A DNA stretch of 36,918 bases from Bryobacteraceae bacterium. GTDB lineage: Bacteria > Acidobacteriota > Terriglobia > Bryobacterales > Bryobacteraceae. Where the stretch lies: positions 1 through 36,918 of the forward strand of contig JAICXK010000015.1 of NCBI GenBank assembly GCA_025980435.1. The letters run 5' to 3'. The position numbers and the translations under genes are program-made. Of the stretch, positions 25,755-27,523 are shown piece by piece (the first letter of the stretch is position 1; each line of letters begins with the position of its first letter). The notes below the pieces were generated by a model. The model was given only the letters and a program-made list of their open reading frames with translations. It made no database searches and was not told where the DNA came from.

Positions 25755-25829
25755 GGCGCTATCGTCTAACGGTTAGGACGGAGCCCTCTCAAGGCTTAAA
25801 TACGGGTTCGATTCCCGTTAGCGCTACCA
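25755..25829 (+). tRNA. tRNA-Glu (anticodon CTC), CCA encoded
   Basis: Acceptor GGCGCTA/TAGCGCT, D-arm TCTAACGGTTAGGA, anticodon arm GAGCC-CTCTCAA-GGCTT, T-arm CGGGTTCGATTCCCG, 3' CCA. Confidence 0.95.
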
Positions 25830-26013: not shown

Positions 26014-26490
26014 TCAGGCCGAAAAAGCGGCGTGAACCTCTTGGTCCAATGGCAAGCACGCGCGGAGAACCACGAGAGAATGCTCAACTAAGAGCTGGTC
26101 GCGCCCGGGATCATCTCCAGCCTCGGCTGGAAGGAATTTCCCGCCGTGGAACAGGTTATTTCGGACCCGCCTGACCATCACCAGGACCTGTTGCGCACGA
26201 GGTACATTATTATCATGGCCTGTCTCTTCCCACTCTAGTTTTCCCGCGCGAAACACTTGCTTCTTCGGAGGTCGGGAGAGCAGATAATCAACAGCGGCCG
26301 TCAGCTCGGCATTCTTAAGCTGTGAGAAGGCTTTATCGATGCCTTTCGCGTACTCATCCCAGCCGGCCTTCGCTTCACCGCCGTTCGCAGGTTTCGCGGC
26401 CTTCAATGCGAACTCATAGCGTGCAAACAGCGCTAGGAAATCGCATGCGAGTTTGGGATCGAGATTGAGCTGGTCGAACGGTGAATTCAT
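26014..26490 (-). CDS. HEPN-like domain protein
   Basis: FLALFARYEFALKAAKP ... VMVRRVRNNLFHGGKFLP contains RNNLFH (R-x4-H, HEPN ribonuclease-type motif); internal Met (MNSPF) at 26490. Confidence 0.65.
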   Translation of the reverse strand: MNSPFDQLNLDPKLACDFLALFARYEFALKAAKPANGGEAKAGWDEYAKGIDKAFSQLKNAELTAAVDYLLSRPPKKQVFRAGKLEWEETGHDNNVPRAQQVLVMVRRVRNNLFHGGKFLPAEAGDDPGRDQLLVEHSLVVLRACLPLDQEVHAAFSA

Positions 26491-26583
26491 GGTCAACCTC
26501 TAGCTTAAGGCGTGTTGCGGTCGGATGATTTTGCGGAGCTTCGGGTGAAGCAGGGCGATCTGCCGAACTGGTAGGCTTTGTGG

Positions 26584-27180
26584 GTGACCACCGAATCGAG
26601 CTCTTCCAACGCGCTATCACCTGAAGCGATTGCCCGGTTGGTTGGCGGACACCGGGAATTCCTGACGTTCCTCGAACGACGCGTTGAATCGAGATCTGCT
26701 GCCGAAGATATCCTGCAAGCCGCGTTTGTACGCGGATTGGAGCACGGGGTGGGAGTGCCGGATGAGAAGGTGGTTGCCTGGTTTTACCGGGTTCTTCGTA
26801 ACTCCGTAATCGATCACTACCGCCACCGGTCCACTTCTGCACGATTTTTGGAAACCTGGGGCAGAGAGTTCACCGAGAGCCAAGAGCCCGATACGGCGCT
26901 GCGGCAGGAAATCTGCCAATGTGTTTCCGGCTTACTCGCGGATCTAAAGCCGGAATACCGCGATGCACTGCGGGTGGTGGATCTGGAGGACGGAACACTC
27001 AGCGACCTGGCGGATCAATCGAGAATTACTGCGGAGAATGCCGCCGTGCGCATACATCGAGCCAGGAAGGCTTTGCGCCGTAAGGTGGAGCAGGCTTGCG
27101 GTACTTGTGCGGAGCATGGGTGCTTCGATTGCCGCTGTCAGACCGCAGGCGGCTCGCATTGCGCCGCCCCTTCAGCCTGA
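26584..27180 (+). CDS. ECF-type RNA polymerase sigma factor with Cys-rich C-terminal tail
   Basis: Region 2 (AEDILQAAFVRGLEH...VVAWFYRVLRNSVIDHYRHR), region 4 (LKPEYRDALRVVDLEDGTLSDLADQSRITAENAAVRIHRARKALRRKV), tail CGTCAEHGCFDCRCQTAGGSHC; track uses TTG 26578, GTG 26584 also possible. Confidence 0.9.
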   Translation: MTTESSSSNALSPEAIARLVGGHREFLTFLERRVESRSAAEDILQAAFVRGLEHGVGVPDEKVVAWFYRVLRNSVIDHYRHRSTSARFLETWGREFTESQEPDTALRQEICQCVSGLLADLKPEYRDALRVVDLEDGTLSDLADQSRITAENAAVRIHRARKALRRKVEQACGTCAEHGCFDCRCQTAGGSHCAAPSA

Positions 27181-27192
27181 ATGCACGGGCAC

Positions 27193-27218
27193 TGTAAGAT
27201 TTCGAGTGGACGCACGTC
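27193..27218 (+). promoter_or_regulatory. Candidate ECF-type promoter TGTAAG-N16-CGTC
   Basis: TGTAAG 27193-27198 and CGTC 27215-27218 separated by 16 nt, about 50 nt upstream of the Cys-rich small ORF. Confidence 0.5.
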
Positions 27219-27268
27219 TGCCCCTTTGAAAGCGCATAGGGCGCTTAACAAAATACAGGAGAAACCAA

Positions 27269-27430
27269 ATGACAAACCGAAAGAACGTACCTGACCAGAG
27301 TGCGGCTACCACCACCTGCTGCGGCGCCTGTGACTGCGCTAGCTGTTCCTGCGGATGCCCTGAAGGCGCATGCCGATGCCAATCGACGAACTGCAAATGC
27401 GGCTGCCGCACACCTGGCAATAGCCGGTAG
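27269..27430 (+). CDS. Metallothionein-like Cys-rich small protein (53 aa, 12 Cys); absent from supplied ORF track
   Basis: ATG preceded by AGGAGA; translation MTNRKNVPDQSAATTTCCGACDCASCSCGCPEGACRCQSTNCKCGCRTPGNSR, stop TAG. Confidence 0.8.
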   Translation: MTNRKNVPDQSAATTTCCGACDCASCSCGCPEGACRCQSTNCKCGCRTPGNSR

Positions 27431-27523
27431 CCCGGATCCGGCCCCGGTCGCCAGACGGCTCGCCGGGGCCACACAGGCGAAACTAGATCGCCGACGCAAC
27501 GCGCCCGCTTAAAATGAACGTTT

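Follow-up and report, generated by a model that had tools for sequence, protein, structure and literature searches.

A CorE-type ECF sigma factor and a Cys-rich peptide gene recur together in Acidobacteriota and Nitrospira, suggesting a compact copper-responsive circuit

Introduction

The closest described relative of the sigma factor analysed here is CorE of Myxococcus xanthus, a Cu(II)-activated factor of group ECF44 (now ECF238) with a sigma2-sigma4 architecture, no anti-sigma factor, a CXC motif in the linker, a CxxCx4CxxCxC tail and copper genes as targets (PMC3107203). The Cys residues of its regulatory tail are at positions 181, 184, 189, 192, 194 and 206, of which C206 is of little importance (PMC3107203). 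The linker CXC motif is essential in, and defining for, CorE-like factors (PMC8999054). Experiments in M. xanthus indicate that copper activates CorE through the tail, and loss of the tail abolishes activity. To our knowledge, CorE-type sigma factors have been studied experimentally in this one organism only, where the targets known are pumps, oxidases and an HMA protein.

A second M. xanthus factor of the same class, CorE2, also has a Cys-rich tail and a CXC linker; it is activated by Cd and Zn, and its tail pattern is CC-x3-C-x2-C-x-C, with Cys174 conferring specificity (PMC9023288). In OrbS of Burkholderia cenocepacia, likewise an ECF sigma factor, the metal sensor is an on-board Cys cluster, but OrbS is inhibited by Fe(II), with a Cys spacing different from that of the factor described below (PMC9023288). 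At the level of description, the RicR-MymT pair of Mycobacterium tuberculosis is also similar, as a small copper metallothionein is induced there by a cytosolic copper sensor (PMC10141476). RicR, however, belongs to the CsoR type and regulates five operons, whereas the regulator here is a sigma factor.

The present analysis concerns a 36,918-nucleotide stretch, referred to as the window, from a Bryobacteraceae genome (5.1 Mb, 93% complete, 416 contigs); the nearest named relatives at the locus are Bryobacteraceae/Bryobacterales, Acidobacteriota. An initial annotation had paired a sigma factor in this window with a downstream Cys-rich peptide and knew of no description of the pairing. In agreement with this, no account of a CorE-type sigma factor coupled to a Cys-rich peptide, or of the promoter that appears to connect them, was found in the literature searched; an earlier mention may exist in the ECF reclassification of 2021 or in the CorE2 work of 2016.

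Results

A CorE-like sigma factor with a Cys-rich tail

26584-27180, plus strand: CorE-type ECF sigma factor gene (198 aa, GTG start), from Pfam profiles and homologs
26914-26922, plus strand: CXC motif (C111 and C113) in the sigma2-sigma4 linker, invariant in 37 aligned sigma factors
27097-27162, plus strand: Cys-rich tail, putative copper sensor (C172-x2-C175-x2-H178-x-C180-x2-C183-x-C185-x7-C193)

The sigma ORF, for which a TTG codon at 26578 is an alternative start, scored above the Pfam cut-offs for both domains expected of an ECF factor, Sigma70_r2 (PF04542) and Sigma70_r4_2 (PF08281). In NCBIfam, the nearest specific family was SigZ (TIGR02959), which at 95 bits fell under the cut-off of 168.65. 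Homologs of the protein range from 87% to 35% identity, with the Cys set invariant. An alignment of 37 sigma factors from Bryobacterales, Nitrospira, Planctomycetota and one Manganitrophus plasmid revealed that C172, C175, H178, C180, C183 and C185 are invariant, together with C111 and C113 of the linker, while C193 is variable. The tail CGTCAEHGCFDCRCQTAGGSHC contains the six Cys residues initially reported, but the sixth does not belong to the conserved set.

The spacing of C172, C175, C180, C183 and C185 is identical to that of C181, C184, C189, C192 and C194 in CorE. The sixth Cys follows after 11 residues in CorE and after 7, unconserved, in the present protein, and all sequences aligned here have H178. 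The position of the CorE2 specificity residue Cys174 is occupied by Ala, Ser or Thr. Candidatus Nitrospira defluvii NIDE1902 was already present in the original 2011 list of CorE-like factors, and the sigma factor from the same genome (L013) is 73% identical to that of the window. The shared Cys spacing, the CXC motif of the linker, and this listing and identity assign the window protein, by sequence, to the CorE-like class (former ECF44 / ECF238), known since 2011. In an AlphaFold model, sigma2 and sigma4 were well predicted and the tail had low confidence, as expected without metal, so that the model provides no structural support for the tail.

Upstream of the sigma gene are tRNA-Glu (25755-25829) and an unrelated minus-strand ORF, and downstream of the pair is an S9 peptidase gene. 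These neighbours include no anti-sigma gene, which agrees with the original observation that an adjacent membrane anti-sigma gene is absent.

The downstream peptide is metallothionein-like

27257-27261, plus strand: Shine-Dalgarno sequence AGGAG of the peptide gene; a GGAG-type site precedes nearly all homologs
27269-27430, plus strand: Cys-rich, metallothionein-like peptide (53 aa, 12 Cys, 0 His)

The peptide has no aromatic residues, and in its size (<100 aa), Cys content and CxC/CC motifs it has the features of a metallothionein. Searches of Pfam, NCBIfam and PDB sequences gave zero matches to any family, including the known bacterial metallothioneins, and the peptide is thus metallothionein-like rather than a member of a known family. 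Like SmtA and BmtA it is small, Cys-rich and CxC-dense, but it differs from both in this lack of matches and in being essentially free of His. An Rfam scan of the locus returned the tRNA alone, plus one sub-threshold chance match.

Among 37 homologs or analogs, the peptides are 23-53 aa long with 7-12 Cys, and all but one are without His. Their length and sequence vary widely, and the CxC repeats alone are kept. For the gene pairs compared, from Bryobacteraceae and Nitrospira, the Ka/Ks ratio was 0.07-0.44, which indicates purifying selection and translation of the ORF. By this measure the peptide ORF is a real gene. The analysis exposes a set of candidate mini-metallothioneins that lack annotation and escape profile libraries.

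The sigma-peptide pairing recurs in two phyla

Conservation of the linkage had been set beforehand as a check on the pairing. A peptide gene was counted as linked when an ORF of 18-75 aa with a Shine-Dalgarno-like site, at least 6 Cys and at least 14% Cys was present at most 900 bp from the sigma gene. Among the first 21 relatives, almost every Nitrospira and several Bryobacterales had such a peptide gene beside the sigma gene, usually in divergent orientation. With the full rule, a Cys-rich ORF was found near the sigma gene at 19/20 Nitrospira loci, 14/30 loci of the order and 12/28 loci phylum-wide; about half of the non-Nitrospira loci have no peptide beside the sigma gene. The controls were nearly empty, with 0/7 for the other ECF loci of the same genome and 1/28 for arbitrary loci, the single match not being CxC-rich. 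No Cys-rich ORF was found at 10 loci of a Nitrospira paralog of ~40% identity, at 5 Planctomycetota loci or at 4 plasmid loci. The linkage thus holds in both Nitrospira and Bryobacteraceae and extends, with a shorter peptide, to Acidobacteriota more broadly: beyond the order the peptide is mostly 21-51 aa long and is encoded just upstream of the sigma gene on the same strand. The sigma-then-peptide layout first described is real in the window, but the two genes are usually divergent, or on one strand with the peptide gene first, and the tandem appears to be derived (see below).

The purifying selection on the peptide, and its recurrence in many genomes against near-empty controls, indicate that the pairing is beyond chance. 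Its presence across soil Acidobacteriota and nitrifying Nitrospira suggests, from sequence comparison, a compact and apparently undescribed copper-mopping circuit.

The ~40% identical paralog (L156-L165) is a second, commoner CorE-like sigma factor of Nitrospiraceae, with a CXC linker and a CGxCxxHGCLNCTC tail but neither motif nor peptide; the tail alone therefore does not define the circuit. CorE-like sigma factors were also found on plasmids of Roseovarius, Croceicoccus, Manganitrophus and others. At the four plasmid loci examined, those of Croceicoccus and Manganitrophus are near a Cu/heavy-metal P-type ATPase gene, and that of Dinoroseobacter is near a gene for a copper-binding protein.

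A conserved, predicted promoter connects the sigma factor to the peptide

27193-27218, plus strand: predicted ECF promoter, -35 TGTAAGATTT and -10 CGTC, 26 nt overall; the same layout precedes the peptide in relatives
27230-27246, plus strand: hairpin AAGCGC-ATAGG-GCGCTT in the 5'-UTR, just 3' of the predicted transcription start

What is new here is a conserved, predicted ECF promoter, TGTAAG-N16-CGTC, that ties the sigma factor to the peptide. The sigma-peptide pairs have in common the sequence CTGTAAGGTTT-N12-CGTCAGC, with the start codon ~50 nt further in most, which is the layout of an ECF promoter; the length from TGTAAG to CGTC is fixed at 26 nt. The strict motif has one exact match in its own genome, in front of the peptide. 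The one-mismatch copies inspected in this genome (L031, L032, L034) are mostly coding-like and are followed by no convincing gene start, and were therefore rejected as signs of a wider regulon.

The motif is present in 21 of 250 genomes of the order, the sigma factor in 27 and both in 19 (p=2.9e-20, Fisher), and a reversed-pattern control gave 2 matches; in Nitrospiraceae it is present in 19 of 147 genomes, all 19 with a close sigma ortholog (p=5.4e-23, Fisher). Both p-values ignore shared ancestry, and the counts include one genome (G125) whose contig C367 is probably misbinned. The twentieth Nitrospiraceae genome with a close ortholog has a one-mismatch copy, and the 45 genomes with the distant paralog alone have no motif. 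In one genome (G008), the sigma gene has no peptide neighbour, and the only motif copy is on another contig, before a Cys-rich peptide gene. This arrangement indicates that promoter and sigma factor co-occur even without physical linkage. The promoter provides a handle on on-board metal sensing in the nitrifier Nitrospira.

The 5'-UTR hairpin is paired in 86% of the cells of the alignment, with a covariation of 0.267 that was reached by 0/500 shuffles. Its stem shows compensatory changes between lineages, and the hairpin also precedes some cupredoxin targets. Our guess is that it protects the short mRNA.

The sigma start codon is ~7 nt past a -10-like box (GGTAAGCT / GATAGG) in Nitrospira (L013, 3960-4001) and in L009/L010 (3960-4001), which suggests a leaderless sigma mRNA. 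In Nitrospira, the -35 element of this putative promoter and the divergent ECF -35 box may overlap, in which case use of one promoter may preclude use of the other.

Genes behind the promoter point to copper

The gene behind the motif is mostly that of a Cys-rich peptide, and otherwise that of a cupredoxin, a copper ATPase or the sigma factor itself; Pfam assignment was made for one representative of each kind. Cupredoxin_1-type genes stand directly behind the motif in four genomes (G140, G228, G109, G074), a YHS/HMBD P-type ATPase gene in one (G206) and the sigma gene in two (G090, G221). Outside the order, similar ATPase genes (G550 and others) stand behind exact or relaxed copies. In one sister genome (L009), genes for a DJ-1/PfpI protein and a multicopper oxidase are between sigma factor and peptide, and three Planctomycetota sigma genes (L025, L026, L028) stand after HMA-domain ATPase genes. 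CorE is known to act on genes for a multicopper oxidase, P1B ATPases and an HMA protein, whereas the main and often only strict target of the window-type factor is a Cys-rich mini-peptide.

The CorE-type Cys spacing and the copper genes behind the same promoter are the grounds for proposing copper, and the evidence points to copper rather than a general metal or redox signal. Of the circuit originally envisaged, in which a tail-sensing sigma factor switches on a metal/thiol-buffer peptide, the linkage and the sigma-associated promoter have thus found support, and the breadth of the signal appears to be narrower than was supposed.

Two further kinds of gene were observed near these loci. A protein of ~440 aa, His-rich at its N-terminus and unmatched in Pfam, is encoded behind a relaxed motif near the sigma gene (L115, L116, L109) and is possibly a copper-related envelope protein. 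A DUF4177-like secreted protein (L083, L069), whose gene follows the motif in G084 and the peptide gene in G091, is a possible further regulon member.

A proposed copper switch and its alternatives

The most probable reading, in which good confidence seems justified, is a self-contained copper-stress switch, in which a sigma factor with a copper-sensing tail turns on a peptide that chelates copper and so reduces the signal. The sequences support it through the sigma class, the Cys pattern, the conservation of the promoter and its co-occurrence with the sigma factor, the peptide gene and the copper genes behind the promoter. Copper as the ligand, activation on binding, metal binding by the peptide and the feedback are what we infer. 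The sigma factor would be synthesised inactive. Rising cytosolic copper would be bound by the Cys/His cluster of the tail, probably together with the linker CXC, and binding would allow the sigma factor to engage RNA polymerase and fire TGTAAG-N16-CGTC. The only strict copy of this promoter in the window's own genome would then give the 53-aa, 12-Cys, His-free peptide, which would hold copper(I) as a thiolate cluster. By depriving both the cell and the sensor tail of copper, the peptide would close the loop without an anti-sigma factor. Such a two-part switch, with a defined 26-bp promoter, would make a compact biosensor part. A broader proposal is put forward tentatively, its chances falling slightly short of even: that circuits of this kind are widespread in Acidobacteriota and Nitrospirota, with a tail-sensing sigma factor largely dedicated to one transcript for a Cys-rich micro-peptide of 22-53 aa, and with the peptide replacing an anti-sigma factor by stripping metal from the tail.

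The same circuit could respond to zinc or cadmium, as CorE2 does, with a Zn/Cd metallothionein as its product. CorE2 is of the same class, CorE itself is weakly responsive to both metals, and Cys-rich peptides bind several soft metals. The window tail, however, lacks the CorE2-specific Cys174 and has the x4 spacing of CorE instead, and the promoter is shared with copper genes (cupredoxin, YHS/HMBD ATPase), with a multicopper oxidase in the cluster. Known bacterial Zn-metallothioneins also differ from these near-His-free peptides, of which 36 of 37 contain no His. A zinc or cadmium signal is therefore considered unlikely.

No better placed is the proposal that the peptide acts mainly as a direct regulator of the sigma factor, as a metallochaperone that loads the tail or as a small anti-sigma factor that binds it. 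It would account for the position of the peptide gene in other Acidobacteriota, just upstream of the sigma gene on the same strand and often overlapping it or within ~50 bp. Against it, the G008 peptide is encoded behind the promoter of the sigma factor yet is unlinked from the sigma gene, and variation from 23 to 53 aa with only the CxC repeats kept is easier to reconcile with metal chelation than with a protein-protein interface.

Ligand sets made up of Cys alone can respond to redox state, and the tail could in principle sense oxidants through disulfides, with the peptide as a thiol buffer, an alternative that the initial annotation allowed for. This is very improbable, since the CorE target cuoB is not induced by H2O2 or diamide, and the motif targets found relate to copper and include no genes of thioredoxin or peroxidase type. 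Least probable of all is that the two genes are chance neighbours, the sigma factor controlling other genes and the Cys-rich ORF being unrelated or unexpressed; several genomes do have the promoter before other genes and no peptide near the sigma gene, but the linkage data largely refute this, and the purifying selection, the conserved promoter, Shine-Dalgarno sequence and 5'-UTR hairpin, and the recurrence in two phyla and three gene orders speak against it.

Origin of the arrangement in the window

26556-27481, plus strand: extent of homology with sister genomes, comprising a sigma block (26556-27191) and a promoter-peptide block (27189-27481)

In blastn comparisons with sister genomes (L009, L010, L079), the window matched as two blocks that are separate in the relatives, where the order is sigma gene, promoter copy, other genes, second promoter copy and peptide gene. 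The junction of the two blocks in the window is exactly on the TGTAAG box, and is most simply explained by recombination between the promoter copies with loss of the intervening genes. Read in this way, the sigma-then-peptide tandem is a derived form. The sigma gene is present in only 2/15 genomes of the same genus, which together with the ends of homology at 26556 and 27481 indicates that the module is accessory. A search for an empty site by way of the flanking S9 peptidase gene in the same genus gave no clean site, as upstream synteny was lost within ~1.5 kb.

The sigma tree places the Nitrospira orthologs, as a supported group, within Bryobacteraceae and beside the window group (support 92-94%, not starred), and this nesting hints at transfer of the module between phyla.

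Two minor observations concern the surroundings of these loci. The locus L014, from a MAG named Bryobacterales SJ717 (contig C367 of G125), matches Nitrospira over ~4 kb at 76-84% and is probably on a misbinned Nitrospira contig. In the window, the minus strand at 26014-26496 has an ORF of 160 aa with no Pfam match, and the RNNLFH (R-x4-H) that it contains recalls HEPN-type RNases or toxins.
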